NCBI RefSeq assembly: GCF_036030735.1
Contig: NZ_CP107928.1
Location: 3,906,001 to 3,970,000, forward strand
Origin: Streptomyces sp. NBC_00425
GTDB taxonomy: Bacteria > Actinomycetota > Actinomycetes > Streptomycetales > Streptomycetaceae
DNA length: 64,000 nt
Direction of reading: 5' to 3'
The translations under genes were made by a program, and so were the position numbers. Positions 15,329 to 36,639 of this stretch are shown in pieces. Positions within the stretch are counted from its first letter, which is position 1, and each line of letters opens with the position of its first letter. Below the pieces are notes generated by a model. It did no database searches. It saw nothing but the letters and a program-made list of their open reading frames with translations, and was not told where the DNA came from.

Positions 15329-15365
15329 ACATCATCCGGGCAGCGACTTCTTGAATCCCTCAACT

Positions 15366-15380
15366 TTAGACGAAATCTAA
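15366..15380. promoter_or_regulatory. candidate operator TTAGA-N5-TCTAA
   Basis: A short inverted repeat (TTAGA, five bases, TCTAA) in an A+T-rich stretch about 40 bp before the 147-residue unknown gene. TAGGAT at 15383-15388 could be a -10 element, so a protein bound here would sit over the promoter. It does not fit the full actinobacterial iron box. Regulator unknown. Confidence 0.35.
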
Positions 15381-15418
15381 GCTAGGATGGTTTCCTGACA
15401 GCACGGGAGGCCATCCTC

Positions 15419-15862
15419 ATGTACGAGCCGATCCACGCAGCTTCTTCCCGTAGGTCCGTCCACACCACGATGGCCGGCACGCCCTCGGACTTCCCCCACC
15501 GCTCCCGCGAGGAGGAGCTGGACATCCAGCTCGCAGGTCATCTCGCGGCGCTGCTCGCCGTCACCGACGAGCTGCGCGCCACGGCGCCGTCCGCCGACCT
15601 GGACGCCGCCGCCACCCGGCTCGCGCAGCAGGTGACCCGGCTGCACGGCGGGCGGACGCGAGTCCGCTCCGACGTCTCCCCCGCTCCGGCCGCCGGGCCG
15701 CGCCTCGTGGCACTGCACGACCGGGCCCACGCCCTCGCGGGCCGGGCCCTCCTCGTCGCCGCGTCCCGCGCGGACACCGCCGTGGCGATCCTGGCGGCCC
15801 AGCGCATGGACGCGCACGCCGCCGGCCAGGCGGAGCAGCAGGAGCTGAGCGCCGCCGGCTGA
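15419..15862 (+). CDS. small helical protein of unknown function
   Basis: 147 residues, not recognised. From residue 25 on the sequence is almost wholly amphipathic helix, rich in Ala, Leu and Arg (EEELDIQLAGHLAALLAVTDELRA ... ALHDRAHALAGRALLVAASRADTAVAILAAQRMDAHAAG), suggesting a helical bundle or coiled coil. No signal peptide or membrane span. GGGAGG at 15405-15410 supports the ATG at 15419. The gene has its own A+T-rich promoter region and is followed by a hairpin at 15906-15943, so it appears monocistronic. Confidence 0.7.
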   Translation: MYEPIHAASSRRSVHTTMAGTPSDFPHRSREEELDIQLAGHLAALLAVTDELRATAPSADLDAAATRLAQQVTRLHGGRTRVRSDVSPAPAAGPRLVALHDRAHALAGRALLVAASRADTAVAILAAQRMDAHAAGQAEQQELSAAG

Positions 15863-15905
15863 CCCCCTTCCCCGGGGGGCTCCCCCATCGGGGACCTCGA
15901 ACGGC

Positions 15906-15943
15906 CCCGGTCCGCGTGCACCCGCAGCGACGCGCGGACCGGG
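15906..15943 (+). terminator. hairpin terminator after the 147-residue gene
   Basis: Perfect 11-bp arms CCCGGTCCGCG and CGCGGACCGGG around a 16-nt loop, 44 nt after the stop. There is no T run, as is usual for Streptomyces terminators. Confidence 0.6.
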
Positions 15944-15950
15944 CGCCATG

Positions 15951-16001
15951 AACGCGTCACGCCCACGAACGCGTCACGCCCACGAACGCGTCACGCCCAC
16001 C
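15951..16001. repeat. three tandem copies of a 17-bp unit
   Basis: AACGCGTCACGCCCACG is repeated three times head to tail (last base changed in copy three) in the 346-bp gap before the glycosyltransferase gene. The 17-bp period is not a multiple of three, so it is not coding. Each copy contains ACGCGT. It may be a binding array or simple slippage. The rest of the gap to 16208 shows no gene. Confidence 0.85.
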
Positions 16002-16208
16002 CGACGGACGCCGCCTCCCGCGACGCCCCGCCGCGGTCCGCCCATTCGGGTGATCTGTACACCACAAGCGCCTGCCGGACTGCGGCGTCCTCGCGGCGGG
16101 CTCGTAACGTCGGCGCACATGACGGTGGTCGACTCCGGCACGTCGGCACGCCCGCGGTCCGCTCGCAGTCGGCCTCCCCCGACCATCGAGCCGAGCAGGG
16201 AGCACCAG

Positions 16209-17483
16209 ATGACGTCGACCGCCACCCCGAGGTTCTCCGTCTTCACCCCCAGCCACCGAACCCGATTCCTCGACGAGTGCCTGGCGACCCTGCAGGCGCA
16301 GACCTGTCCGGACTGGGAGTGGATCGTCCTGCTCAACAACGGCGCCCGCTGGCGGCCGGAGCGCCCCGACGACCGGGTCCGGATCGAGATCGCGGACCAC
16401 GTCACCGGCGTCGGAGCGGCGAAGCGCAGGGCCTGTGAACTGGCCCGCGGCGAGATCCTGGTGGAACTCGACCATGACGACCTGCTGGCGAAGGCGTGCC
16501 TGGCGGAGCTCGGCAAGGCCTTCGACGAGCACCCCGACGCCGTCTTCGTGTACAGCAACACCGCGCAGATCACCGAGGACGGGAAACGGGACGACAGCCG
16601 TTTCAACGAGTCGCACGGCTGGCACTACGAGGACGTGCGCGTCGACGGCCGCAACCTGCTGCAGGTCAGGGCGATGGCGCCGACCCCGCACAACATCGCG
16701 TACATCTGGTACGCGCCCAACCACGTGCGGGCGTTCCGCAGGGACGCCTATGTGACGGCCGGCGGGTACGACGCCTCCCGCTCGGTCCTGGACGACCAGG
16801 ACCTGATGTGCCGTCTGTTCCACGTCGGCGACTTCCACCACATCCCCCGCTGTCTGTACCTGCAGCGGATGCACCCGGCGAACACCCAGCGCGACCCGGA
16901 GACCAACGCGCACATCCAGAGCGAGACGGTCGCCCTGTACGACAAGTACATCGAGGCCAACGCCCTCGCCTGGACGTACCGCAGGGGACTGCTCGCGCTC
17001 GACCTCGGAGCGGCGCACCGCAAGCCGCCCGGTTACCTGGGCGTGGACCAGTACCCGGGCGAGGGCGTCGACATCGTCGCGACCCTGCCCGGCAGGCTGG
17101 ACCTGCCCGACGACTCCGTCGGTCTGATGCGGGCCGTGGACTTCCTGGAGCACGTGCCGGCGAAGATTCCCCTGATCAACGAGCTGTACCGGCTGTTGGC
17201 GCCCGGTGGCATGCTCCTCAGCACGACCCCCAGCTCCGACGGCCGTGGCGCGTACCAGGACCCGACCCACGTCGCGTACTACAACGAGAACTCCTTCTGG
17301 TACTACACGGACGACCAGTACCGCGCCTTCGTGCCCGAGATCGAGGCCAGGTTCCAGAGTTCCCGGCTGACGACCTGTTTCCCGTCCCAGTGGCACTCCG
17401 AGAAGAACATCTCCTACGTGATCGCCAACCTCATCTCGGTGAAGGACGGCGCCGAGCGGTGCGGCGGCCCGCTGCTGGTGTAG
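16209..17483 (+). CDS. bifunctional family-2 glycosyltransferase and SAM methyltransferase-like protein
   Basis: 424 residues with two domains. Residues about 5-250 are a GT-A fold family-2 glycosyltransferase: FSVFTPSHRTRFLDECLATL, the acidic metal/nucleotide-sugar motif VELDHDD, and GGYDASRSVLDDQDLMCRL. Residues about 265-415 resemble a class I methyltransferase (LDLGAAHRKPPGYLGVDQY, MRAVDFLEHVPAKIPLINEL, LLAPGGMLLSTTPS), though the glycine-rich loop is short. ATG 16209 has AGGGAG upstream. It lies convergent to the dTDP-rhamnose genes and may help build the same glycan; dTDP-rhamnose as donor is a guess from location. Confidence 0.83.
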   Translation: MTSTATPRFSVFTPSHRTRFLDECLATLQAQTCPDWEWIVLLNNGARWRPERPDDRVRIEIADHVTGVGAAKRRACELARGEILVELDHDDLLAKACLAELGKAFDEHPDAVFVYSNTAQITEDGKRDDSRFNESHGWHYEDVRVDGRNLLQVRAMAPTPHNIAYIWYAPNHVRAFRRDAYVTAGGYDASRSVLDDQDLMCRLFHVGDFHHIPRCLYLQRMHPANTQRDPETNAHIQSETVALYDKYIEANALAWTYRRGLLALDLGAAHRKPPGYLGVDQYPGEGVDIVATLPGRLDLPDDSVGLMRAVDFLEHVPAKIPLINELYRLLAPGGMLLSTTPSSDGRGAYQDPTHVAYYNENSFWYYTDDQYRAFVPEIEARFQSSRLTTCFPSQWHSEKNISYVIANLISVKDGAERCGGPLLV

Positions 17484-17560: not shown

Positions 17561-18469
17561 TCAGGGCCGTCGCGTCGTGCGGGCCGCGGCGGCCAGTGCG
17601 GCGAAGGCGGGCAGCCTCACGGCCGAGGCCAACTGGTCGTCCCACGGGGGAAGGGGCGCCAGACCGGCCCGCAGCCAGCCGCCGTGGCCGAGCACGCCGA
17701 ACGCCGGGCGCGCGGCCGGCCGGGGGAACTTCTCCGAGCCGACGGGGCGGATCCGCTCGGGATCGAGACCGCTGAGCCGGAACGCGTCGCGCGCCAGGCC
17801 GCACCAGGTGGTGCGGCCCGCCGACGTGCCGTGGTAGATGCCCGCCGGGGCCCGGCCCGTGAGCGCGGCGCGCCCGAGGGCGGCCAACTGCCGGGCGAGC
17901 GCCCGGGTCCAGGTCGGCTGACCGTGTTGGTCGGCGACCACGTCCAGGGTCTCGCGGCGGGCGGCGAGTCCGAGCACGGTGGCCACGAAGTTGGGACCGT
18001 GCTCGCCGTAGAGCCAGGCGGTGCGGACGACGTAGCCGGTGTCCGGCAGCAGCTCGACGACGGCCCGCTCGCCCGCCAGTTTGCTCCGCCCGTACGCGTT
18101 GACGGGGCCCGTCGGCGCGTCCTCGGGGTAGGGGCCGCGGGCGTCGCCCGGGAAGACGTAGTCGGTCGACAGGTGCAGCAGGATGGCGCCGCCGTCCGCG
18201 CAGGCGCCGGCCAGGTGGCGGACGCCCGTGCCGTTCACGGCGGTGGCGGCCGCCTCGGACCGCTCGGCGCCGTCGACGTCCGTCCAGGCGGCGCAGTTCA
18301 CGACCACGGCGTGGCCGGGGACGGCCGCACGCACGGCGTCCGGGTCGGTGATGTCGAGCCGGTCGCGGCCGAGGCCCGTCACCACGGCGTCCGGATCGGC
18401 GGCGAGCTCGGCCAGCACGTCCCGGCCGAGGAGCCCGTGGGCGCCGGTGACCAGCCACCTCGTGGTCAT
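17561..18469 (-). CDS. rfbD: dTDP-4-dehydrorhamnose reductase
   Basis: 302 residues, a short-chain dehydrogenase/reductase that makes dTDP-L-rhamnose in the last step of the pathway. NAD(P) motif TGAHGLLG at the N terminus, VVNCAAWTDVDGAE, the STDYVFPGD strand and the catalytic YGRSK. The ATG at 18469 overlaps the rfbB stop by 4 nt, so the two are coupled. From family knowledge it uses NADPH and acts after RfbC. The C terminus (HGGWLRAGLAPLPPWDDQL) is the usual substrate-domain end. Confidence 0.95.
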   Translation of the reverse strand: MTTRWLVTGAHGLLGRDVLAELAADPDAVVTGLGRDRLDITDPDAVRAAVPGHAVVVNCAAWTDVDGAERSEAAATAVNGTGVRHLAGACADGGAILLHLSTDYVFPGDARGPYPEDAPTGPVNAYGRSKLAGERAVVELLPDTGYVVRTAWLYGEHGPNFVATVLGLAARRETLDVVADQHGQPTWTRALARQLAALGRAALTGRAPAGIYHGTSAGRTTWCGLARDAFRLSGLDPERIRPVGSEKFPRPAARPAFGVLGHGGWLRAGLAPLPPWDDQLASAVRLPAFAALAAAARTTRRP

Positions 18470-19440
18470 CGCGGTGCGGCCCTCTCCTTCAGCGGCTCCC
18501 ACCACGAGCGGTGGGCGCGGTACCAGGCGACCGTGTCCGCCAGCCCCTCCGTCAAGGGCGTCTGCGGGGCGTAGCCGAGTTCTTCGCGGATCCTGCTGTC
18601 GTCCAGCGAGTAGCGCAGATCGTGCCCCTTGCGGTCGGGTACGTGCTCGACCCGGTCCCAGTCCGCGCCGAGGGCGTCCAGCAGCAGACCCGTGAGCTTG
18701 TGGTTGCTCAGCTCGACGCCTCCGCCGATGTGGTAGACCTCCCCCGCCCGGCCGCCGCGCAGGACCAGGTCGATGCCCCGGCAGTGGTCGGAGACGTGCA
18801 GCCAGTCGCGGACGTTGCGGCCGTCCCCGTACAGGGGGACCGGCTTCCCGTCGAGCAGGTGGGTGACGAAGAGCGGAACGACCTTCTCGGGGAACTGGTA
18901 CGGCCCGTAGTTGTTGGTGCAGCGGGTGACCACGACGTCCAGTCCGTGGGTGCGGTGGTGGGCGAGGGCCAGCAGGTCCGCGCCGGCCTTCGAGGCGGAG
19001 TACGGGGAGTTCGGGGCCAGAGGATGGCTCTCGGTCCACGACCCTTCGCCGATCGAGCCGTACACCTCGTCCGTGGACACCTGGACGAAGCGGCCGACGC
19101 CGTGCCGGAGCGCCGCGTCGAGCAGCACCTGTGTGCCCAGCACATTGGTGCGGACGAACGGACCGGCCCCCTCGATCGACCGGTCGACGTGCGACTCGGC
19201 GGCGAAGTGCACCACCGCGTCCTGACCCGCCATCACCTGGTCGACCACGTCCGGGTCGCAGATGTCGCCCCGCACGAAGGCGTAGCCGGGGGCTTTCGCC
19301 ACCGACGCCAGATTCGCCTCGACCCCTGAGTAGGTGAGCTTGTCGAGGACGGTGACGCGTGCCGCGGGATCCGCTCTCAACCGCTGCCGGACGTATTCGG
19401 AACCGATGAATCCGGCACCGCCGGTCACCAGGACGCGCAT
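18466..19440 (-). CDS. rfbB: dTDP-glucose 4,6-dehydratase
   Basis: 324 residues, an extended SDR that converts dTDP-glucose to dTDP-4-keto-6-deoxyglucose with a bound NAD+. Visible motifs: TGGAGFIGSEYVR (nucleotide), HFAAESHVDRSI, the active-site STDEVYGS (Asp/Glu pair) and YSASK, and VTRCTNNYGPYQFPEK. GGAGAG just upstream supports ATG 19440; an upstream in-frame ATG would add a leader with no family match. Coupled to rfbD by an ATGA overlap. Separated from rfbA and rfbC by the collagen-like gene, so it probably has its own promoter in the 165-bp gap before it. Confidence 0.96.
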   Translation of the reverse strand: MRVLVTGGAGFIGSEYVRQRLRADPAARVTVLDKLTYSGVEANLASVAKAPGYAFVRGDICDPDVVDQVMAGQDAVVHFAAESHVDRSIEGAGPFVRTNVLGTQVLLDAALRHGVGRFVQVSTDEVYGSIGEGSWTESHPLAPNSPYSASKAGADLLALAHHRTHGLDVVVTRCTNNYGPYQFPEKVVPLFVTHLLDGKPVPLYGDGRNVRDWLHVSDHCRGIDLVLRGGRAGEVYHIGGGVELSNHKLTGLLLDALGADWDRVEHVPDRKGHDLRYSLDDSRIREELGYAPQTPLTEGLADTVAWYRAHRSWWEPLKERAAPR

Positions 19441-25678: not shown

Positions 25679-26404
25679 GTGAACGCACCCGAGATCCGCG
25701 TCGAAGTCGCCCCCGAGCTGGCCCTGTTCGTCCCGCACGCCCGGCGTGCCGGCGCCACCGCACTCGCCGTCGACGGCGTGTCGACGCTCGGCCATGTCGT
25801 CGAGTCCCTCGGGGTGCCCCTCACCGAGGTCGGCGCCCTCGTCGTCGACGGCCGTGAGGCGCCGGTCTCGCACATCCCCGCCGACGGCGAGTCCGTGACC
25901 GTCCGCCCGGTCAGCCGCCCCCAGCGCGTCCCCGGCGCCCCGCTGCGGTTCCTCCTGGACGTCCACCTCGGCACCCTGGCCCGCCGGATGCGTCTGCTCG
26001 GCGTGGACACGGCGTACGAGTCGACCGACATCGGCGACCCGGCGCTCGCCGCCCGCTCGGCCGCCGAACGGCGCGTCATGCTCAGCCGCGACCGGGGCCT
26101 GCTGCGCCGGCGCGAACTGTGGGCGGGCGGCTACGTGTACAGCACCGACCCCGCCGAGCAACTGCGCGACGTCCTCGACCGGTTCGCGCCCGCACTGCGT
26201 CCCTGGACCAGGTGCACCGCCTGCAACGGCGAACTGCGCCAGGCCACCAAGGACGAGGTCGCCGACCAGCTCGAACACGGCACCCAGCAGAACTACGACG
26301 TCTTCGCCCAGTGCCGCTCCTGTGGACGCGCGTACTGGAAGGGCGCGCACCACGACCAGCTGGAGGCCATCGTGGAACGCGCCCTCGCCGAATTCCCCGG
26401 CTGA
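25679..26404 (+). CDS. Mut7-C RNase-domain protein with ubiquitin-like N-terminal domain
   Basis: 241 residues. Residues about 5-82 form a ThiS/MoaD-like beta-grasp (Ub-Mut7C) domain. Residues about 90-170 are the Mut7-C PIN-fold nuclease: RFLLDVHLGTLARRMRLLGVDT, DIGDPALAARSAAERRVMLSRDRGLLRR, with the acidic catalytic residues D, E and D visible. A C-terminal zinc ribbon follows (CTACN ... CRSCGRAYW). Proteins of this build are thought to be RNases; the role of the fused ubiquitin-like domain is unknown. The start is GTG 25679, with no strong ribosome site. Single gene. Confidence 0.88.
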   Translation: MNAPEIRVEVAPELALFVPHARRAGATALAVDGVSTLGHVVESLGVPLTEVGALVVDGREAPVSHIPADGESVTVRPVSRPQRVPGAPLRFLLDVHLGTLARRMRLLGVDTAYESTDIGDPALAARSAAERRVMLSRDRGLLRRRELWAGGYVYSTDPAEQLRDVLDRFAPALRPWTRCTACNGELRQATKDEVADQLEHGTQQNYDVFAQCRSCGRAYWKGAHHDQLEAIVERALAEFPG

Positions 26405-26489
26405 CCCGCCGAGCCTCCCGGCGCGTCGAGCCTCCGGGCCCGCCGCCCTGCCGGTCCGCCGCCCTCCCGGGCAGCCGACCCGACGCCCT

Positions 26490-28541
26490 CTAACCCGCCG
26501 GCTGCTCCCGGCCGCCCAGCGCGATGCGCAGCTGCTCCGGGTCGGTGGTGGGCGCGTCGCAGGTGAAGTCGCGGCAGACGTACGCGGTCGGTGCGCCGCC
26601 GCGCAGCGGCCGGTCGGCCAGCAGCGGGAACTCGTCGCCGCCGGGGACGCCGAAGGCGACGACCGCGCCCGGGGCGTTGCCCAGCAGCGCCGTGCGGTGC
26701 AGGGCCTTCGACGCCGAGTCGTCCGTGGCGGGGCCGACGACGGCGACCTCGCGCGGGCCGTCGAGCAGCGCCTCGGCGACGGCCAGCCCCCACCCGATGA
26801 ACCGGGGAACCCGCGGCCCGAGCGCCTTCACCACGCCCGAAGCCCGCTCCGCGGCCGTGCGGTGCGGCTCGGAACCGGTGTGGGCCGCGTACCCCAGCAG
26901 CGCACCGGCCGCCGCCGTCCAGCCCGAGGGCACGGCGTTGTCGGTCGGGTCCTGCGGACGCCGGATGAGCCGCTCGGCGTCGGCGGCGGTGTCGAACAGC
27001 GCGCCGGACTCCGGGTCGGCGAACCGGGCGAGGACATGGTCGAGCAGGAACCCGGCGAACTCCAGCCAGACGCCCTCCCCGGTGACCGAGGCCAGCGCGA
27101 GGAACCCCTCGGCCACGTCTGCATAGTCCTCCAGGACGCCCGCGTTGGCCCCGACCTGACCGTCCTTGCTGGTCCGCGACAGTCGCGCCTGGTCGTCCAG
27201 GTGCAGCCGGACGAGGAGGTCGGCGGCGGCGACGGCCGCGTCCACCAGGTCCGGACGGTCGAAGTAGGCGCCGGTCTCGGCGAGCGCGGCGATCGCGAGC
27301 CCGTTCCACGCGGCGACGACCTTGTCGTCCCGGCCGGGCGCCGGGCGCAGCGCGCGCGCACGCAGCAGCCGCTCCTTGACGCCCGCGATCCTGACGGCGT
27401 CGAACACGCCCTCCTGTTGCGGCAGTTGCAGGACGGAGGCGCCCTGCTCGAAGGTGCCCTCCTCGGTCACGCCGAAACAGCGTGCCGCGAGTTCGGCGTC
27501 CTCGGGGCCGAGCGCCGCCTCGAGCTGAGCGGGCGTCCACACGTAGTACGCGCCCTCGACGTGGTTGCCTTCGCCGTCGTCGCTGTCGGCGTCGAGCGCC
27601 GAGGCGAACCCGCCCTCGGCGGTGCGCAGTTCGCGCACCATGAAGTCGGCGGTCTCCAGCGCGACCCGGCGGGCCAGTTCGCTCCCGGTGGCCCGCCAGA
27701 GGTGGGCGTAGACGCGGCACAGCAGGGCGTTGTCGTACAGCATCTTCTCGAAGTGGGGCACCACCCAGTCACGGTCGACGGAGTACCGGGCGAACCCGCC
27801 GCCGAGCTGGTCGTAGATCCCGCCGCGCGCCATCCGCTCGCAGGTGTCCTGCGCCATCTGGAGGGCGCCCTCGGCGCCGGTCCGCGCGGCGTGCCGCAGC
27901 AGGAACTCGAGCACCATCGACGGCGGGAACTTCGGCGCGCCGCCGAAACCGCCGCGCTGCGCGTCGTACTCCCGGGTCAGCCCGAGCAGCGCCTGCGACA
28001 GCTCCTGCTCCCCGGGGGCGCGGCTGTCCCCGTAGGAGATCTCCCGTCCGGCCAGGTCCCGCACGATCTTCCCGGCGACCTCGGCCACCTCGTCGCGCCG
28101 CTCCGTCCACGCCTGGTGCACCCCCTCCAGCACCTGCCGGAAGGAGGGCATGCCGTGCCGGGGCGCGGGCGGGAAGTACGTGCCGAAGTAGAACGGCTCG
28201 GCGTCGGGCGTCAGGAACACGGTCATCGGCCACCCGCCCTGCCCGGTGGCCGCCTGCACGGCTTCCATGTAGACGGCGTCGACGTCCGGACGCTCCTCCC
28301 GGTCGACCTTGATGTTGACGAAGTGGTCGTTGAGGCGGTCGGCGGTCTCCTGGTCCTCGAAGGACTCGTGCGCCATCACATGGCACCAGTGGCAGCTGCT
28401 GTATCCCACGCTCAGCAGCACCGGCACGCCGCGCCTGCGCGCCTCTTCGAAGGCCTCCGCCGACCAGGGCCACCAGTCGACGGGGTTGTCGGCGTGCTGG
28501 AGCAGGTACGGGGACGTCTCATGGGCCAGTCGGTTCGCCAT
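26490..28541 (-). CDS. thioredoxin-fold DUF255 protein (YyaL/SSP411-type)
   Basis: 683 residues. An N-terminal thioredoxin-like domain (about 1-165) opens with [22 protein letters not shown] and has the CHWCH redox motif and DREERPDVD. It is followed by an (alpha/alpha)6-barrel domain related to N-acylglucosamine 2-epimerases ([47 protein letters not shown]). The family is widespread (spermatogenesis-associated protein 20 in animals) but its reaction is not established. ATG 28541 starts at the family N terminus; an ATG nine bases earlier is possible. Cytoplasmic by lack of signal. Confidence 0.92.
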
Positions 28542-28571
28542 GACGCCCATCCTGCCGCAGGTCCCGGCCGG

Positions 28572-29273
28572 TCAGGCGGCAGGCATGTCCCAGACGGTGA
28601 CGTTGAGCCTGCCCTGGCCGGTGCTCGGCGCGGTGACGACGCGCAGGTAGGCGACGTGCCCCTGGTCGGTCAGCAGGCAGAAGCGGTCGCCCCGCTTCAC
28701 GTCGGCCGTGTACGTGCCGTTGCGGTCCACGCTCTCGGCGCACTCCCCGGCGCTCGGGGCGGGACCGGTGGCGGGCAGCGGGGCCAGGCTGGAGGCGGAC
28801 TCCGGCACGAACAGCGTCGGGTCGCCGATGGACGCCCCGAAGATCACGTCCGCGCCCTTGACGGAGCTGCCCGACACGACCGGACGGGACGTGTCCAGCT
28901 CGATGTAGGACCCGGAGTCGGTCACGTCGGCCGCCAGGTCAGCGGGGCCGTACCGCACCTGCGCCGCCCCGGCGCCCGTCCCTGCGCCCGGCGTGGCGGA
29001 CGCCGGTGGCTGCGCCGGAGCGGAGGACGACGTCGAGGCGGGCGGCCGCCCGTCGGTGGCAGGCGCCGCCTTGCCGTCGCCGTCCGAGGAGCCCGGCCGG
29101 CTCACCAGCACCGTGATGAGAATGCCCACCACGGGAATGACGATCCCGACGACCCACCAGGCCCACCGCGGCTGTTGGGGCGTCTGAGGCGGCTGGGGAT
29201 GCGGCGGCTGGGGCGGATAGGGCTGGTGGGGTCCCTGCGGCGGGCCCGCCGGCCCCCCGTTGTACGCGCTCAT
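28572..29273 (-). CDS. single-span membrane protein with Pro-rich head and extracellular domain
   Basis: 233 residues, family not recognised. A Pro/Gln-rich cytoplasmic head (YPPQPPHPQPPQTPQQP), one membrane helix (WAWWVVGIVIPVVGILITVLV, about 37-57), a Ser/Pro/Ala linker, then an outside domain (about 105-230) with two Cys (ECAESV, RFCLLT) and beta-type alternation (GDRFCLLTDQGHVAYLRVV). This head-helix-linker-domain plan is common among Streptomyces envelope proteins. GGGGGAAG precedes the ATG. It is divergent from the STAND gene and shares a 150-bp promoter region with it; whether it belongs to that system is open. Confidence 0.75.
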   Translation of the reverse strand: MSAYNGGPAGPPQGPHQPYPPQPPHPQPPQTPQQPRWAWWVVGIVIPVVGILITVLVSRPGSSDGDGKAAPATDGRPPASTSSSAPAQPPASATPGAGTGAGAAQVRYGPADLAADVTDSGSYIELDTSRPVVSGSSVKGADVIFGASIGDPTLFVPESASSLAPLPATGPAPSAGECAESVDRNGTYTADVKRGDRFCLLTDQGHVAYLRVVTAPSTGQGRLNVTVWDMPAA

Positions 29274-29423
29274 GCAACTTCCCCCGTCGTCCTCATCGGT
29301 CTCTGCGATCACGATAGTGGCGGGGACGCCCCGTGCCGCAACGCCTTCTGCCCCCTCGCGCCGCGGAGCCGCCCGCCGCACACTTGACCGAGCACAACTG
29401 GTGCCGCCGGAGGGGGACGGGAC

Positions 29424-32400
29424 ATGCGGGACGGCCATAGGGCGGAAGCCGAGCGGTTGTTGGCGCGGGCCGTGGAGGAAGAGGTACGGCGGTCCGGCGG
29501 GCGTACCGACCGGCAGGCGCTGCTGACGCGGGCGCGGGGCGCGCTGGACGCGATGGCGCAGACCGCCGCCGAGGAGTACGAGGCGTACGCCCGCGCCCTG
29601 GAGGAGTCGGAGTCCGCCCGGATCAGTTTCGGACAGCGCTACGCGCGTGAGGGCGGCCGGACTCCGCTGCTGGTGGCGGGCGTCGCCGCCCTCACGACGG
29701 CGGTCGCCGACCTCGCGCTGGGCACGGGCCCGGGCACGGCGCTCGGCGCCGGGGTGACCGTCGGGGTCGTCGGGGCGGCGGCGACGGTCGTGAAGGTGGC
29801 GGGGTCGCATCTGCCGGCCGCGCACCACCGGGCCGGCGCGGCCGGACAGCCGGGCGGAGCCGAGCAGTTGAGGTTGCAGTGGCTCACGGCGCTGGAGGTG
29901 CGCGGCATCCGGCCGTTCCTGGACCAGCAGCGCGTGCTGAGCGCGACGACCGGTCCGAAGAAGGCGACGGGACCGCAGCTGCGCGGCGCGGACAAGAGCG
30001 CGGCGGCACGCGGGCGGACGGTGCTGCAGCAGTCGTTCGCTCAACTTCCCCAGCCGGTCGGTCCGTTCGCCGGCCGACGCACGGAACTCGCGCAGATCCG
30101 GCAGTGGGTGCAGGCGGCTCGGGCCAGCACGCAGACCCGTCCCACCGTGGTCGTGCTGCACGGCGCCCCCGGCAGCGGCCGTACCGCGCTCGCGGTGCGC
30201 GCCGCGCACGATCTGCGGGACCAGTTCCGCGGCGCCTGCGTGGTGGATCTGCGCGGCGACAGCACGGGCGAGGCCCCGCTGCCCACCCGGGACGCCCTGC
30301 TGCATCTGCTGAACCGGCTGGGCGCGCCCCGCGAGCAGCTTCTCTTCCGTGAGCGTTCCTCGGCGGAACAGCAGCTGAAGCGGCTGGGCGAGCTGTACCA
30401 CCAGCACCTGACGGGCCTGCCGGTGACGGTGATCCTGGACGACGCCTCGGATGCCGGGCAGGTCCGCGCACTCGTCCCGGAACGCTCCGACAGTCTGGTC
30501 CTCGTGACGGCCCGGACGGCGCTCGCCCTGCCGGCCGAACTGTCGGCGTGGGTGCACGAGCTGGCGGTCCGTCCGCTGACGGCCGCGGGCGCGGAGGAGC
30601 TGCTGGGCGCGACGGCACAGGACGCCTCGGGTCCGTACGACGCCGAGGCCGCGGACCGGATCACCGAATTGTGCGGCGGGCTGCCGCTCGCCCTGCGGGT
30701 CGCGGGCTCCTCACTGGGCCCGCGCTCGCCGCGCGCCCTCGCGGCGGATCTCGCGGCGTACGGCCCGGTGGAGCCGGTGGAGCGCGCGCTGTGGCTGCGC
30801 TACACCGACCAGCCGGAGACGACCCGCCGGCTGCTGCGCCGGCTGGCGCTCGCCGGACGGGCCTCGCTGGGTACGGCCGCGGCCGCCGCGCTGCTCGCGA
30901 CGGACCGCCCGGAGGCGTCCCGTCTCCTCGCGGCCCTCGCCGACGCGGGTCTCGTCGACCGGGTCCGGGGCGACCGCTACCGTCTGCACGACCTGGTCCG
31001 CGGTTTCGCGCAGGCCCGGCTGCTGGACGAGGAGGACCCCGGCGAGCGTTCGGCGGCGCAGGAGCGGCTGCTGGTCAGCTACGCGGAGCTGGCCGACTCC
31101 GTGCTGCGGCTGGTCGACGGCAACATGTCGACCCGCTCCGACCGTTTCACCCCGCACGGCTTCACCTCGCTGGACGAGGCGCTGCGCTGGCTGGACGACG
31201 AGTCGAGCTTCATCACGGCGACGCTGCGGCACACCGAGGGCGTCGACCAGAACGCGGTGATGAGTCTGCTGGGCGCGCTGTGCGACTACTGCCTGCTGCG
31301 CGGCGACCTCTACCGGCTCGGCGAGATCAGCGAGCTGGCACAGTCGGTCGGCCAGGATCTGCTGGTCAGGTCCGTGCAGTGGCGCACCGGCATCGCCGCC
31401 CGTCAGCTGGGCGAGCTCGACAAGGCGCGCACCACGCTCAGCTCGGTCGTCGACCTCTATCTGCAGGCCCACCACGACGCGGGCGCCGCACGGGCGCTGT
31501 GCTCACTGGGCATCACCCTGCACCACCAGGGCCAGCTCACGCAGGCGTCGGCGAAACTGCGGGAGGCGATGGCCCTGCAGGCGGCGCCCGAGCTGGCCAC
31601 CGACCGCGCCTGGACGATGCACGCGCTGGCGGCGGTGGAGCGGGACCGGGCGCATCTCGCCGAGGCGCTGGACCTGCTGACCCGTTCGCTGCTGCTGCAC
31701 CGCGAGGGCGGCTCCGTGCACGGTGAGGCGTGGGCGCACTTCCAGCTGGGGCAGCTGCATCTGCGGCGGGGCGATGTGCCGCAGGCCGAGTCCGAGCTGC
31801 GGCAGGCTCTTGACCTGTACGGCCGCACCCGCGACGCCCGCGGCGAGGCGTGGGCCATGACCCAGCTGGCGCGGGCCCGTCTCATCGACGGCGATCCGGG
31901 TCCGGCGGCGGAGGACCTGCGCCGGGCGTCGGCCCGGCACCGGGACAACGAGGACGCGCGCGGCGAGGCGTGGACGGTGTACTACCTGGGCCTGGCCCTG
32001 GAGGAGACGGGCGATCTGCACCACGCGGTGCGCGAACTGGAACGCTCCCGCACCCTCTTCTCCCGCATGCGGGACGTCTACGGGCTGGCCTGCGCCCGGC
32101 ACCACTCGGCCCGGGTGACCCGGGACCAGCGTGCCGCCCAGACCGGCTCGCTGCGCAACTCGGGCTTCGCCCGGCAGCTCCTGGTCGACGCCCGCGCCGA
32201 CTTCCAGCGCATCGGCGTCGCCCACGGCGAGGCCTGGACGTGCCTCGAGCTGGCGATCGTGGACGCGGGCAACGCCCGAACCCAGGCGGCCCTCGCGCTG
32301 TGCGAGGAGGCGGCGGCCCTGTTCACGTCCTACGGCGACCTGCGCGGCGAGGACTGGGCCCGCTTCCTGCGCTGCACGCTCCTGCCGTACGCGGCGCCGG

Positions 32401-32630
32401 GCGGCGTGGAGGTGGGCGCCGCGGTGGCCCAGGAGGACCTGGCGGAGCTGCGGCGGGCGGAACACGCCTTGCGCGACACCAAGCTGGTCGAGTGCGTGGA
32501 GGCGTACGGCCTGTTGCTGGAAAGGGGGGTGCGGCTGGAAGCGGGGTGGCAGGCTTGGCGGTTGGGCCTGGTGCCGGACCGGCATGCGCGGGAGGTCATG
32601 GGAGTGGTGATCGCGGCTTCGCCTCGGTGA
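29424..32630 (+). CDS. STAND-class NTPase with NB-ARC-like domain and TPR repeats
   Basis: 1068 residues. N-terminal helical part with two Gly-rich hydrophobic stretches (about 80-130) that could insert in a membrane. The NTPase has a P-loop GAPGSGRTAL (residues 247-254; Arg at the usual Lys), Walker B VTVILDDAS (about 334-341) and the GGLPLALRVAGSSL motif (about 419) that marks NB-ARC/STAND proteins. A winged helix follows (RYRLHDLVRGFAQARLL), then about ten TPR-like helical pairs from residue 600 on, several carrying GEAW. Such proteins are inactive until a signal frees the NTPase to oligomerise. The next gene starts 9 nt downstream, so it heads the cassette. Signal and partners unknown. 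Confidence 0.88.
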   Translation: MRDGHRAEAERLLARAVEEEVRRSGGRTDRQALLTRARGALDAMAQTAAEEYEAYARALEESESARISFGQRYAREGGRTPLLVAGVAALTTAVADLALGTGPGTALGAGVTVGVVGAAATVVKVAGSHLPAAHHRAGAAGQPGGAEQLRLQWLTALEVRGIRPFLDQQRVLSATTGPKKATGPQLRGADKSAAARGRTVLQQSFAQLPQPVGPFAGRRTELAQIRQWVQAARASTQTRPTVVVLHGAPGSGRTALAVRAAHDLRDQFRGACVVDLRGDSTGEAPLPTRDALLHLLNRLGAPREQLLFRERSSAEQQLKRLGELYHQHLTGLPVTVILDDASDAGQVRALVPERSDSLVLVTARTALALPAELSAWVHELAVRPLTAAGAEELLGATAQDASGPYDAEAADRITELCGGLPLALRVAGSSLGPRSPRALAADLAAYGPVEPVERALWLRYTDQPETTRRLLRRLALAGRASLGTAAAAALLATDRPEASRLLAALADAGLVDRVRGDRYRLHDLVRGFAQARLLDEEDPGERSAAQERLLVSYAELADSVLRLVDGNMSTRSDRFTPHGFTSLDEALRWLDDESSFITATLRHTEGVDQNAVMSLLGALCDYCLLRGDLYRLGEISELAQSVGQDLLVRSVQWRTGIAARQLGELDKARTTLSSVVDLYLQAHHDAGAARALCSLGITLHHQGQLTQASAKLREAMALQAAPELATDRAWTMHALAAVERDRAHLAEALDLLTRSLLLHREGGSVHGEAWAHFQLGQLHLRRGDVPQAESELRQALDLYGRTRDARGEAWAMTQLARARLIDGDPGPAAEDLRRASARHRDNEDARGEAWTVYYLGLALEETGDLHHAVRELERSRTLFSRMRDVYGLACARHHSARVTRDQRAAQTGSLRNSGFARQLLVDARADFQRIGVAHGEAWTCLELAIVDAGNARTQAALALCEEAAALFTSYGDLRGEDWARFLRCTLLPYAAPGGVEVGAAVAQEDLAELRRAEHALRDTKLVECVEAYGLLLERGVRLEAGWQAWRLGLVPDRHAREVMGVVIAASPR

Positions 32631-32639
32631 GAGGACTCG

Positions 32640-34070
32640 GTGAGCGATGTGAACGGACCCACGACAGAGGAAGCAGGAAGTGCGCGACGGCCTCACGAAG
32701 GACGCGCACTGCTACTCAGGATGATGGTGACGCTGTGGGTGGGGACGGGCGCGTTCCTCGTGACAAGCCACCTCCATCAGGGCTCGGGCCAGGCGTGGCC
32801 GTTGGCCTTGTCCGGCTTCCTCAGCGGTGGGGTGCTGATCCTGCAGTACCTCGTGGACTTCGAAAGGCGTCTGAGGGCCGCCGACCTGCTCCACGAGAGA
32901 CGCATCCGCGAGGTGAGGGACAGTCTGTCGTCGCACCGGTCGGAGATGCGTGCGGCGGTCGACGAGGGCTTCGCCAGGATCAGCGACGCGACCGAACTGT
33001 TCAGCCAGGTGGACCGCTCGGTGTTGCGGTCCGACGGGGTGACCCGGCTGGCCCGCACGTACGCGCGGGTCGGCGAGCGAGGATCGGGGCTCGTCAACGT
33101 GTTCGCCGAAGAGGAGTTGGCCCGCCTCGCCTCTTTGATGGAAGACCTGAGTCACGGGTCCGCGGACCTGGCCGGCGAGAACCGTGAGTGGCTGGTCTCC
33201 CTCACGGAGTGCGCCTCGCGAACCATCCATGCCGTCAGCACGTCCATCGACCGGGACTTCTGGCTCGGCGAGGGGGCGAACCGCTACCTCAGGGCCCAGA
33301 AAGAGGCACTGGAGAGCCGGGGGGTGCGGATCCAGCATCTGTTCCTCGTGGGGAGAAGCGACGAGATCACCGATGACCTGACGCGACTGTGCGACGACGT
33401 GGGGGAGTTGGGCGTCGACGTCCGCATCGCCGCTCTTTCGGAGCTGCCGCCGCGGGCCCGGTTGGCTCCTGGTCACGACTTCGTCGTCTTCGACGAGGAG
33501 TTGTGCTACGAGATTCATCCGGGCCCGTCGGCTCACGCCAGGACCACCTTGAGGGCAGGACGCGAGGACGTCCAGGCACGGATCGCCGGCTTCACCGTGC
33601 TGTGGGAATCGGCCATGAAACGGCGACCGGCTCTTCCGCGCATCCCTCCTGCGCTGCCCGGCGGGGTGGCCTCGGATGTCTGCCGGCTCCGTCTGACCTT
33701 GCTCGACGAACACCCTGTCCCGCGCGCTCCGGCGAGGATCCGCCTGCGGGTCCAAGCAGGCCCCGGGCACCCGTGGTCGGCGCCGGACGCCCACCTGCCC
33801 CTGCTCGTCGTCACCGCGACGCCTCTCTCCGCGGCACGCATCCAGCCGGCTGCTGTCTCGACGCGGCCTTCTCGAGCGGGTGACGACAACACGGCCGAGT
33901 TCCTCTTCACTCCGGAGCTGGCAGGTGCACACCGGCTCCGCGTCACCGTCCACGACCAGGCGAGCGGCACCGTCCTCCAGCAGGTCGAGACGACGGTGCA
34001 CGTCGCCTCCGCACCGGGTGGGCTTGCACCGGCTCTCGCCCCCCTCAACCCGCGCGCGCAAGGGGATTGA
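32640..34070 (+). CDS. two-TM membrane protein with degenerate PLD-like and C-terminal beta domains
   Basis: 476 residues, family not recognised. Two membrane helices (about 24-44 and 52-73), a charged coiled coil (about 75-120), then a mixed alpha/beta domain (about 170-325) with RYLRAQKEALESRGVRIQHLFLV and GHDFVVFDEELCYEI, which recalls the phospholipase D fold but has no HxKxxxxD catalytic motif. The last 120 residues look like an immunoglobulin-type sandwich (ending AGAHRLRVTVHD...VLQQVETTVHV). Start is GTG 32640 with GAGAGGA upstream. It lies 4 nt before the CHAT gene. Likely a membrane adaptor or sensor of the cassette; its codon choice looks less G+C biased than the STAND gene. Confidence 0.72.
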   Translation: MSDVNGPTTEEAGSARRPHEGRALLLRMMVTLWVGTGAFLVTSHLHQGSGQAWPLALSGFLSGGVLILQYLVDFERRLRAADLLHERRIREVRDSLSSHRSEMRAAVDEGFARISDATELFSQVDRSVLRSDGVTRLARTYARVGERGSGLVNVFAEEELARLASLMEDLSHGSADLAGENREWLVSLTECASRTIHAVSTSIDRDFWLGEGANRYLRAQKEALESRGVRIQHLFLVGRSDEITDDLTRLCDDVGELGVDVRIAALSELPPRARLAPGHDFVVFDEELCYEIHPGPSAHARTTLRAGREDVQARIAGFTVLWESAMKRRPALPRIPPALPGGVASDVCRLRLTLLDEHPVPRAPARIRLRVQAGPGHPWSAPDAHLPLLVVTATPLSAARIQPAAVSTRPSRAGDDNTAEFLFTPELAGAHRLRVTVHDQASGTVLQQVETTVHVASAPGGLAPALAPLNPRAQGD

Positions 34071-34074
34071 CCGC

Positions 34075-35367
34075 ATGGGCCGCGATCTCGACGTACACAT
34101 CGTGCAGAACCCCAGCCACGACTTCACGCGCTCGCCCATGCCGACCGCGCTGCACCCCGACCTGGTCGTGGCTCTCAACCGGTACGACGGCGACCGGATC
34201 TTCATCCGTCTGTACGGCACCGCCGTACCACCTTCCCGGCACGGCGATCCCTGCGCAGTGCTGAACACGAGGCCTGCGGCGGTGCGGGCGTTGGCCTCAC
34301 GTCTGCGTCAGCGCTGGAAAGCCGAGTTCGTCGACGCCCGGTCGTCAGCCGAGGACATGACACTCACCGCGGACCGTCACGAGTTCCCATACGCCACGCA
34401 GGTCGACCTCTCGGGTGAACCGGAGGAGGAGCTGGGCCCAGTGCTCGACGAGCTCGCCGTGCACGGCGCCTACCTGCTCTTCGGTGCGCTCCTCGAGGGC
34501 GGCGAACCACCTGTCACACGGGTGCGGCAGGTGTTGATCGACGTCTTGAGCCGCGAGAACCTGCGCATACGCTTCGACTCCGATGTGCTCTTCCTCCCCT
34601 GGTCCCTGCTCTGCCTGCCCGAAGGCGCGTCAGGGGGTGACGGACTCGACACTCATTTCGGACGTTTTCTGGGGCACCGCCATCAGATCGAGCAGACGGG
34701 CGGCTACTACCCGGATCTGCCCGACGCCCGGACTCCCGCGCCGCCCCTGACCTCTCCGAGCGTGAGTCTGAACCACGACACCGAGGTCGACGTCCTGGGC
34801 CTGACCAAAGCCGCGCAAGTCGCGGCCCTGCTGGCCAAGGACACATCGTTCCGCGAACGCCGCAGCCGTCAGGCCCTGGTGGACGACATCGCCGCAGGAC
34901 GGCTGAACGAGCAATTCATGTACTTCTGGTGCCATGGTCTTTTCCGTACAGATGGGGCCGACTCGCCGTTCCTCGTGGTGCGGTTGAGCGACGGCCGGGA
35001 CATCGACGCGCAGACCGTGCTGGCGCGTTGCGGGGCAGATTCGGGCACCGTGCTGCGCCGCCATCCCCTCGTGCTGCTCAATGCCTGCTACGCAGGCATG
35101 CCCGGCAGCGCCGATCTGGCGCATCTGGGCGGGGCACTCATCCGGGTCGGCGCCGCCGGGGTCCTTGGACCTCAGATCGAGATGCCCCAGATCTTCGCGG
35201 CCGAGTACGCGCTCACCTACGTGGAACGGTATCTGGGTGGGCATCAGACCGCTGGCGCGATCGCCCACGACCTGGCCCGGCATTTCGCAGGCGTCCACCG
35301 AAACCCGCTGGCCCTCGCCTACACCCTGCACGGTGGGATGGACAGTCGTCTGGAGCGTGTTCCGTGA
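34075..35367 (+). CDS. CHAT-domain cysteine protease
   Basis: 430 residues. The C-terminal half is a CHAT (caspase-HetF-associated with TPR) domain with both catalytic residues in place: His287 in YFWCHGLF and Cys338 in VLLNACYAG. The family's strand order is kept: LPWSLLCLP upstream, then GVLGPQIEMPQIFAAEYA and FAGVHRNPLALAYTLHG. The N-terminal half (1-200) is unassigned and may bind a partner. CHAT proteins are caspase-like peptidases that cut one or few targets once activated by TPR or NTPase sensors. AAGGGGA precedes the ATG at 34075. Its stop overlaps the hydrolase start (TGATG). No gasdermin is encoded nearby. Confidence 0.87.
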   Translation: MGRDLDVHIVQNPSHDFTRSPMPTALHPDLVVALNRYDGDRIFIRLYGTAVPPSRHGDPCAVLNTRPAAVRALASRLRQRWKAEFVDARSSAEDMTLTADRHEFPYATQVDLSGEPEEELGPVLDELAVHGAYLLFGALLEGGEPPVTRVRQVLIDVLSRENLRIRFDSDVLFLPWSLLCLPEGASGGDGLDTHFGRFLGHRHQIEQTGGYYPDLPDARTPAPPLTSPSVSLNHDTEVDVLGLTKAAQVAALLAKDTSFRERRSRQALVDDIAAGRLNEQFMYFWCHGLFRTDGADSPFLVVRLSDGRDIDAQTVLARCGADSGTVLRRHPLVLLNACYAGMPGSADLAHLGGALIRVGAAGVLGPQIEMPQIFAAEYALTYVERYLGGHQTAGAIAHDLARHFAGVHRNPLALAYTLHGGMDSRLERVP

Positions 35368-36335
35368 TGCCCGTGGTGATCGATCTCGACGTCTCCGGTC
35401 GCGTGGTCCAGGAGACGCCCACCGGCCTGCGACCGGTCCCGCCGCACCGTCTGGACGATCACTTCGCCGCCCTGCTGACCCCTCCCGCCTGGGCGACGGA
35501 CCTACTGGTCTACGTCCACGGCTGGCAGACCAAGCCGGAGTCCGCGCTCACCTCCGTCCAGCGCCTGCTCGCCCTGACAGCTGACCAGCACGAGTCCGGC
35601 CGGTACGGGAAGTTGAGGCCCTGGCATCCCTGGACGGTCCTGATCCGCTGGCCGTCGCGTTCACTGCCGTCTCTCGGCGGATACCGCCGGATCCGCGATC
35701 GGGCCCACGACATGGGCACGAGGGGACAGGCAGCCCGCATCATCGGCCGGCTCCTCGGCTATCTGCACGCACACCGGGCGGACCCCGCCGCCCCGCCCGT
35801 ACTCGCCGGCCCGCGCGGCCAGTACCTGCACCTGATCGGTCATTCTTTCGGCTGCCGGTTCCTGTGCGAAGCGGTGCAGTGGGCCGCGGGCGAACAGCCG
35901 CTCACGCTGGGCTGGAGCACACCGTGGCCGCGCGGCCGGCCGTTCACCGTGGATTCGATGCTGCTGCTTCAGATGGCGGCGCCACGCGACGCGTTCTCCG
36001 TCACCTTCACCGCGCTCGGGAAGGCACCCCTGCGCGGGCCGGTCGTCGCGACCTACTCGCAGCATGACCGGGCCACGGGCTTCTGGCACCTGCGAGCCGA
36101 ACGGCGCGTGGGCATCGGATACGCCGGCATCGGCACGGCACCGGCGCCGGTGTCGACGATCGTCATGCGGACGGCGGACGAGCCGTACCCCCTCGAGACC
36201 CTCGACCACCGTTTCGTCAGCGTGGATGCAAGCAGCGTGTTCACGCAGGGAAACGGCCCGGCGGGCGCCCACTCCGATCATTTGCGGCCGGAGTCGGCGC
36301 ACCTCCTGCTGTCGCTGGCCGAGCACTCCCGGTAG
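35367..36335 (+). CDS. alpha/beta-hydrolase of a CHAT-linked cassette
   Basis: 322 residues. The alpha/beta-hydrolase core is visible: oxyanion-hole segment LLVYVHGWQ (H51-G52), nucleophile elbow LIGHSFG with Ser160, and possible Asp/His near the C terminus (SDHLRPESAHLLLSL). No signal peptide. The 35-residue N-terminal strand (VIDLDVSGRVVQETPTGLRPVP) is not part of the hydrolase fold. It could act on lipids, esters or amides; as last gene of the STAND-CHAT cassette it may be the effector released or processed by the CHAT protease. That role is inferred from order only. Followed by a hairpin at 36366-36397. Confidence 0.8.
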   Translation: MPVVIDLDVSGRVVQETPTGLRPVPPHRLDDHFAALLTPPAWATDLLVYVHGWQTKPESALTSVQRLLALTADQHESGRYGKLRPWHPWTVLIRWPSRSLPSLGGYRRIRDRAHDMGTRGQAARIIGRLLGYLHAHRADPAAPPVLAGPRGQYLHLIGHSFGCRFLCEAVQWAAGEQPLTLGWSTPWPRGRPFTVDSMLLLQMAAPRDAFSVTFTALGKAPLRGPVVATYSQHDRATGFWHLRAERRVGIGYAGIGTAPAPVSTIVMRTADEPYPLETLDHRFVSVDASSVFTQGNGPAGAHSDHLRPESAHLLLSLAEHSR

Positions 36336-36365
36336 TCGCCAGGCATCGGATCGCCCCTCTTGCCT

Positions 36366-36397
36366 CGCGAAGAGAGAGCCGAGCTCAGCTCTTCGCG
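36366..36397 (+). terminator. hairpin after the STAND-CHAT cassette
   Basis: CGCGAAGAG and CTCTTCGCG arms with a 14-nt loop, 31 nt after the hydrolase stop. It overlaps the last codons and stop of the convergent small membrane gene, so it may work for both strands. Confidence 0.55.
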
Positions 36398-36639
36398 GCC
36401 GAGGCCTCCCCGCCGGCATTTTCGCCGGAGGTCTGCTCGGCGCCGCCCGCGCTCTCCTTGAAGTCGACCTTGCCCATGTGCTTGCTCATGGACCGCATCA
36501 GGCCCCACACCGCGACCGCCATCGCCGCGAAGACGATGAAGCCGAGGACGCCGGGGGTGACCTTGTTCTCGTCGACCTCCTTGGCGAGGGGGACGAGATG
36601 CGTCATTGCCAGGCTCACGCTTGCGCTCATGTCAGGCAT
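36385..36639 (-). CDS. small single-span membrane protein
   Basis: Up to 84 residues; unknown function. One membrane helix (GVLGFIVFAAMAVAVWGLM) is followed by a basic segment (RSMSKHMGKVDF) and a Gly/Ser/Glu tail. The gene begins within 10 nt of the mca stop and is co-transcribed with it. Start is uncertain: ATG 36639 overlaps mca by 8 nt, ATG 36630 lies one base after the mca stop, and ATG 36606 (THLVPLAKEVDE) gives the most compact product. A partner role to Mca is possible but only location supports it. Confidence 0.7.
   Translation of the reverse strand: MPDMSASVSLAMTHLVPLAKEVDENKVTPGVLGFIVFAAMAVAVWGLMRSMSKHMGKVDFKESAGGAEQTSGENAGGEASAAKS

Follow-up and report, generated by a model that had tools for sequence, protein, structure and literature searches.

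An accessory three-gene cassette in Streptomyces joins an exchangeable front gene to a CHAT protease and an alpha/beta-hydrolase and is a candidate immune module

We analyzed a 64,000-nucleotide (nt) stretch of the Streptomyces sp. NBC_00425 genome (contig NZ_CP107928.1, positions 3,906,001 to 3,970,000; hereafter the window, in whose numbering coordinates are given) and, within it, four genes lying on the + strand between positions 29424 and 36335. A preliminary description had presented them as one four-gene cassette, in which a STAND NTPase, a membrane adaptor, a caspase-like CHAT protease and an alpha/beta-hydrolase would follow the logic of bacterial immune or programmed-death systems. 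The four open reading frames (ORFs), their spacing (gaps of 9 nt and 4 nt, then a 1-nt overlap) and the active-site residues named in that description were all exact. The unit itself is another one: judging from comparisons across genomes, the real unit is an accessory cassette of three genes, namely a variable front gene, the CHAT protease and the alpha/beta-hydrolase, with the STAND gene as a neighbor outside it.

The locus and the extent of the insert

The front gene (32640..34070, + strand) encodes a chimera. Its first part is a two-transmembrane (TM), coiled-coil, pseudo-phospholipase D (PLD) protein of DUF6879-like type, related to the last gene of the SCO2525-SCO2522 cluster; the HKD catalytic motif is absent from its PLD domain, and this domain takes up the structure matches listed for the gene (VIA list). 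The two membrane helices, at about residues 20-45 and 52-75 (32697..32864; model helices, with the hydrophobic stretches read by eye), had been noticed before and agree with the predicted model, which has one helix at 20-45 and a long helix starting at 52. The second part is an Ig-like domain (residues 348-469, 33681..34046), modelled as a beta-sandwich over residues 348-455 with pLDDT mostly above 90. It corresponds to the 'receptor-like C terminus' of the preliminary description and is the constant module of the cassette, its start being the swapping boundary, while the remainder of the protein is the swapped part. Rather than a membrane adaptor between the STAND protein and the protease, as had been proposed, this gene appears to be the input protein itself. 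The same fusion is found in two proteins of other Streptomyces (P0126 and P0127, 53% and 46% identical along most of their length) and is therefore not an assembly error.

The second gene of the cassette (34075..35367, + strand) encodes a CHAT protease of 430 amino acids, with His287 at 34933-34935 and Cys338 at 35086-35088; its match to PF12770 reaches 30.4 bits against a Pfam cutoff of 24. The third (35367..36335, + strand) encodes a serine hydrolase of 322 amino acids, with Ser160 at 35844-35846, Asp234 at 36066-36068 and His302 at 36270-36272. The hydrolase model has a pTM of 0.88, and its top Foldseek rows are esterases, lipases and DDHD domains, all weak (a single match reaches E <= 0.001, at 5e-4). 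Library searches name little here: Pfam matches are below threshold for the front gene (DUF6879) and the hydrolase (DUF900), none of the three genes is matched in the NCBIfam libraries, and a PDB sequence search with the front and CHAT proteins returned chance-level matches only.

Gene 1 (29424..32630, + strand), directly upstream, encodes a STAND-like protein with TPRs. Its earlier reading as an NB-ARC-like NTPase agrees with the domain matches (AAA_16, 34.7 bits against a Pfam cutoff of 32.6; NB-ARC, 27.9 against 23.5), but not with the canonical Walker A lysine: the P-loop is degenerate (GAPGSGRT in the window). Of 30 orthologues, 21 yielded a P-loop, always with arginine in place of lysine, and the nine others did not match the search pattern. 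Gene 1 was found in 126 of 150 Streptomyces genomes (E <= 1e-100), at up to 97% identity in genomes devoid of the other three genes, and by this distribution is a core Streptomyces gene. Eighteen cassette-free loci, sampled from those 126 genomes and mostly from the closest relatives, all retain the end of gene 1 together with the downstream flank. In 16 of them, matches to window positions ~32607-32617 and ~36410-36459 are separated by 48-643 bases, a stretch in which blastn finds nothing of 150 bases or more that matches the window; in two of the 18 (L171, L172) a piece of the hydrolase is left at the site. Because all 18 loci keep gene 1 and the flank, the accessory insert consists of the three downstream genes only, and the flank matches of these relatives place it at 32618..36410, with no strand applicable.

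The site directly behind the gene 1 stop codon is a frequent one, occupied by 30 of 63 distinct cassettes compared. Gene 1 was not seen beside the other 33; seven of these have less than 700 bases upstream, where it could be hidden, and 26 have 3.8-11.4 kb. The core distribution, the cassette-free sites and the cassettes found elsewhere led us to reject the STAND gene as a cassette member and do not support it as the cassette's sensor.

A constant core behind exchangeable front parts

A CHAT alignment scan of public genomes (48 loci), with genome searches and two plasmid records, yielded 64 distinct CHAT loci, distinctness being decided on the CHAT sequence. The Ig-like domain, CHAT and hydrolase are all present in 58 of them, and every distinct complete locus (58 of 58) has the three in this order on a single strand (the two sets of 58 differ by the exchange of L202 and L065). 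The preliminary description was right in placing CHAT and hydrolase together behind a signal-input protein, but not in its four-gene order; the hydrolase in last position is a core part, and the pairing of caspase and alpha/beta-hydrolase is known in print (PMC7159879). An Ig-like domain of about 110-120 residues ends the gene before CHAT, except in one locus (L069), whose front protein has it close to its beginning. Used alone as the query, this domain gave matches at 21 places, spread over 19 of 294 genomes, each of which has the hydrolase as well.

The catalytic residues are strongly conserved. Among distinct relatives with the column in question, His287 of CHAT is kept in 63 of 63 and Cys338 in 62 of 64 (alignment of 67 distinct rows, fragments included), and Ser160, Asp234 and His302 of the hydrolase, which form a GxSxG nucleophile elbow plus Asp and His, are each kept in 62 of 62 (63 distinct rows). 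Joint decay of protease and hydrolase was considered and rejected, being only a tendency: the hydrolase is absent where the CHAT cysteine is changed to glycine (L033, L066) or the CHAT frame is broken (L062, L067), but L028 and L057 have an intact CHAT without hydrolase and L061 a broken CHAT with one. In L057, the front frame and the Ig-like domain are in different frames.

What precedes the Ig-like domain varies widely. Across 63 distinct loci, we found STAND/TPR fronts at 29 loci beside gene 1 (a class assigned by that position, with no per-row domain table) and at two elsewhere, long TPR proteins, some with a weak NB-ARC, at eight, NB-ARC/TPR plus MinD-like fronts at four, the restriction subunit HsdR at three, TM kinases at three, NACHT at two and caspase-like fronts at two. 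Single loci have a sigma factor, a TIR, a VMAP, a ribosomal protein L4 and the TM-DUF6879 front of the window, and five of the 63 are cut (L028, L052, L066, L189, L190). Classes were assigned from Pfam for HsdR (L047, L048, L211), for long TPR proteins with NB-ARC below cutoff or absent (L050, L055, L058, L070) and for L057, L063, L064, L184, L068, L071, L188, L069, L237, L191, L202, L210, L234, L183 and L039, and from length and tree relationship for L059, L072, L186, L187 and L209; the caspase label of L236, which has no Pfam match at 1e-3, derives from 43% identity to L191. A Pfam tally over 41 front proteins gives TPR_12 in 26, AAA_16 in 14 and NB-ARC in 10. One STAND/TPR front (G094), compared with two genomes at E <= 1e-10, matches only itself, the window Ig-like domain and gene 1, the last in the TPR region and at 37-40% identity.

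Two fronts resemble the cell's own core machinery very closely. The L4 front spans positions 1-187 of the 190 of the L4 profile (219 versus 25.8 bits), and its genome has a separate L4 gene that is 88-89% identical; the dN/dS of this pair is 0.14, against 0.18-0.31 for other Streptomyces L4 pairs. Regions 2, 3 and 4 are all present in the sigma front, which reaches 314.8 versus 234 bits with the SigB/SigF/SigG model, and is 87% identical over 281 positions (92% over residues 53-304) to another sigma gene of the same genome, with a dN/dS of 0.14 over residues 53-304 (other sigma pairs, 0.08-0.12). By these comparisons, both are near-copies of genes of their own genome under purifying selection. 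Like the sigma front, the HsdR fronts match their own family across catalytic or functional regions, and in three of three loci HsdM and HsdS lie directly upstream, making a complete type I restriction operon. Other fronts look inactive: the catalytic Asp, the usual Lys and a DFG motif are missing from all three kinase fronts (by eye), and the Walker A Lys is absent by pattern in 15 of 29 STAND fronts.

Side observations on two of these classes deserve mention. In the HsdR loci, HsdM of L048 and L211 is 98% identical to that of L047, and HsdS only 61%, a pattern that reads as altered target recognition while the executioner was retained. The L191 and L236 fronts have two caspase-like halves, with a GHG motif in only one half of L191; by their motifs, they are largely degenerate caspase-like domains placed before a CHAT protease.

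Front parts have been swapped between closely related cores. In a CHAT tree (a quick tree with several long branches flagged, from which L065, L073 and the fragments L061, L067, L074 and L220 were left out), the HsdR-, sigma- and TIR-fronted cassettes form one group of six rows with SH-aLRT 100, in which CHAT proteins are 75-78% and hydrolases 80-85% identical. Compared with each other, the HsdR, sigma and TIR fronts give no match at all. Nucleotide homology (76-78%) sets in 5-28 bases into the Ig-like domain and extends for ~2.69 kb, almost reaching the hydrolase end; such a breakpoint in the alignments shows exchange of the preceding part as a block, at the domain edge. The window CHAT lies in a group of 22 rows (SH-aLRT 100) that comprises 19 STAND/TPR cassettes at the same chromosomal site, two cut ones and the window; most likely, then, the present front took the place of a STAND/TPR front at this very site. 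The VMAP front of L039 falls within another STAND/TPR CHAT group.

The cassette is sporadically distributed. The hydrolase occurs in 34 of 392 Streptomyces genomes, full-length in 30, and a match to the CHAT protein in 24 of 150 (E <= 0.001), many of these weak and partial. A class-wide sample gave the hydrolase in 4 of 394 genomes, all of one genus (1 of 137 genera), and a set of relatives in 17 of 296 genomes and 2 of 72 genera, the second genus, from another family, being represented by a NACHT-fronted cassette (L237); Kitasatospora homologues are among the protein matches listed. The cassette occurs on the chromosome and on plasmids, with two Streptomyces plasmid copies (L234, L236); of the three plasmid records, that of Embleya (L235) looks broken and was excluded from counts. 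In genome G052 (C1), hydrolase fragments with equal scores lie near both chromosome ends (18086-18515 and 8648049-8648478) and are presumably relics in terminal inverted repeats. In L202 (genome G159), the gene for a phage-type tyrosine recombinase (by eye; reverse complement, 14880-16475) lies on the opposite strand, ~0.1 kb past the hydrolase frame in the L4-fronted cassette, a hint of an integrated element.

Bait, effector or regulator

We lean towards reading the cassette as an accessory immune module of three genes, probably of the abortive-infection kind, in which the front gene would act as bait or sensor and CHAT and hydrolase as executioners, a function that we infer from gene content and conservation. 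The exchanged part of the front protein would resemble a cell component or defense protein that invaders attack or bind. Once this bait is hit, the Ig-like domain may relay the change to CHAT through a putative contact; CHAT would then become an active protease and cut the front protein, the hydrolase or both, and the freed esterase- or lipase-type hydrolase would damage the infected cell. The bait of the window, a membrane-anchored pseudo-PLD protein, would watch the membrane, having replaced the STAND/TPR bait that its nearest CHAT relatives still carry at the same site. Fronts that are near-copies of the cell's own parts look like a built-in tripwire against infection. As to the immune or death logic of the preliminary description, the sporadic spread, the presence on both chromosome and plasmids and the three loci within a type I restriction operon are consistent with it.

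A more specific version of the bait reading is possible, and we advance it tentatively: the cassettes may form a family of integrated-decoy receptors, in which the Ig-like domain plugs near-perfect copies of core machinery (L4, SigF-type, HsdR), or dead copies of signaling proteins, into the protease and hydrolase, and a phage factor that hijacks the copy springs the trap. In plants, NLR integrated decoys are copies of host targets fused to an immune receptor. The plant proteins are unrelated to ours, and the executioner of the cassette, unlike theirs, is in separate genes.

The best rival is that the front protein is a weapon or regulator, held by the Ig-like domain as a tether until CHAT frees it on a signal: a sigma factor would then reprogram transcription, and HsdR, TIR or STAND proteins would attack. 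Effector release by caspase auto-proteolysis has been proposed for the EACC1 system (PMC7159879, section 33), and the part of PMC10028731 devoted to Craspase has its CHAT protease controlling a sigma factor through cleavage of an inhibitor; the sigma and HsdR fronts, matching their families over catalytic or functional regions, would suit such a role. We consider it rather unlikely, however, since catalysis seems lost in the three kinase fronts, in the PLD of the window and in about half of the STAND fronts, as expected of baits and not of enzymes, free L4 is no obvious weapon, and the conserved hydrolase is left without a role. Less likely again is housekeeping control, in which the front would steer CHAT and hydrolase to the ribosome, RNA polymerase, the membrane or a restriction complex for quality control or development rather than defense. 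Near-functional L4 and sigma fronts could indeed join their machines, and Streptomyces is a developing, multicellular genus, but the presence of the hydrolase in so few genomes, the relics and the plasmid copies speak against it, as does a front part that differs between close CHAT relatives. A linear cascade of all four genes, from STAND sensor through membrane adaptor and CHAT to hydrolase, seems very improbable: the tight spacing behind the STAND gene makes co-transcription likely and nearly half of the cassettes share this site, but the STAND gene is core and stands without cassette at all 18 sites fetched, and the 26 cassettes with at least 3.8 kb upstream have no STAND neighbor there.

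Intact fronts (L4, sigma, HsdR), dead fronts and a conserved hydrolase, taken together, favor the bait reading, modestly. Several observations weigh against it. The HsdR, sigma and L4 fronts look intact and are equally possible as released effectors, and each of the fusions with L4, sigma, TIR and VMAP is known from a single locus. The hydrolase is absent in 5 of the 64 distinct loci (L028, L033, L057, L062, L066), and two genomes with a full-length hydrolase (G028, G059) have no Ig-like match at E 1e-4, though weak ones in another search. SCO2524 is absent from the genome of the window, which has no second copy of the bait either; the bait here is therefore no copy of a resident protein, contrary to the simplest decoy story. 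PADLOC 2.0.0 gives no match for the three genes at E up to 1. Neither CHAT nor hydrolase has relatives in IMG/VR viral contigs, and no hydrolase was found in phage records, where CHAT was not searched; a prophage or viral origin was rejected on these grounds.

If the bait reading is true, the front parts would provide a genome-readable list of host proteins attacked by actinomycete phages and plasmids, the cassette would be a bacterial counterpart of plant integrated decoys with a caspase-like executioner, and its Ig-like domain, CHAT and hydrolase would form a modular scaffold fitted with new sensors by recombination. Even if it is false, the presence of L4, a sigma factor and a restriction subunit on the same small domain, before the same protease, poses a puzzle about the role of CHAT in multicellular bacteria.

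Related systems and neighboring genes

The nearest known systems are the caspase/alpha-beta-hydrolase conflict systems of Kaur et al. (eLife 2020; PMC7159879), so that the logic of the cassette is known in outline. According to the part of that article on VMAP systems, the caspase domain is always accompanied by a neighboring alpha/beta-hydrolase gene, and inactive enzyme copies are suggested to be decoys. As these MoxR-vWA ternary systems are presented there, the cassette resembles them in its caspase and alpha/beta-hydrolase neighbors (a common family not being implied), in combining a constant with a highly variable part, in its occurrence in multicellular bacteria and in inactive copies that are proposed decoys. 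One cassette, L039 (8010-10001), even uses an EAD2, VMAP-M0 and VMAP-C protein as its front, followed by Ig-like domain, CHAT and hydrolase, and ties the cassette to these systems. Upstream in its contig, reading by eye revealed neither a MoxR nor a vWA gene; the contig ends ~0.3 kb past the hydrolase, where both would follow. The differences are that the constant module of the cassette is an Ig-like domain and that VMAP is one of many fronts. The window's four proteins have no VMAP, MoxR or vWA domain in Pfam, flanking genes being read by eye only.

In the actinobacterial EACC1-caspase two-gene system (PMC7159879), which has membrane-linked variants, a constant caspase is likewise coupled to alternative domains, up to 50 of them, including elongation factor Tu (section 33). 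There the variable domain is on the caspase itself and the TM protein EACC1 precedes it, whereas the cassette has CHAT in a gene of its own, joins the variable domain to the Ig-like domain and ends with a hydrolase. Craspase (type III-E CRISPR TPR-CHAT, Csx29), as the relevant part of PMC10028731 has it, is similar in having a CHAT switched on by partner contact and a link to a sigma factor; the cassette differs in having neither CRISPR effector nor Csx30, and a hydrolase as partner instead. Only CHAT was matched in the window CHAT protein, with no TPR, and genes 1-4 have no Cas domain, the flanks being read by eye only. As for the HsdR-fronted cassettes, the passages of PMC12409349 on PrrC/EcoprrI, Ronin and PARIS describe death proteins coupled to a restriction system or triggered by its inhibitors, but these are tRNA nucleases or a short toxin with a fixed partner, whereas the partner slot of the cassette is swappable. 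Beyond the outline of Kaur et al., a limited search of open-licence articles in PubMed Central (PMC) found no published description of an Ig-tagged swappable front gene, of L4 and SigF near-copies or of a link to a complete restriction operon.

Free-standing relatives of the window's front part lie behind the SCO2525-SCO2522 cluster in nine of nine loci fetched, out of about 29 places found. In L198 (8698-15343), for which the neighboring families were named, and in L197, L199, L200 and L238-L242 (neighborhoods determined by tblastn), these families are regularly followed by an additional gene for a two-TM DUF6879-like protein, possibly a missing component of the cluster.

Upstream of gene 1, a + strand ORF at 26322-29387 was considered as a fifth gene of the operon and rejected, a codon-position gene finder placing it antisense to a - strand gene at 26490-28550, which encodes a YyaL-like protein (by eye). 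This 1021-amino-acid open frame opposite a conserved gene is an artefact of high GC content.

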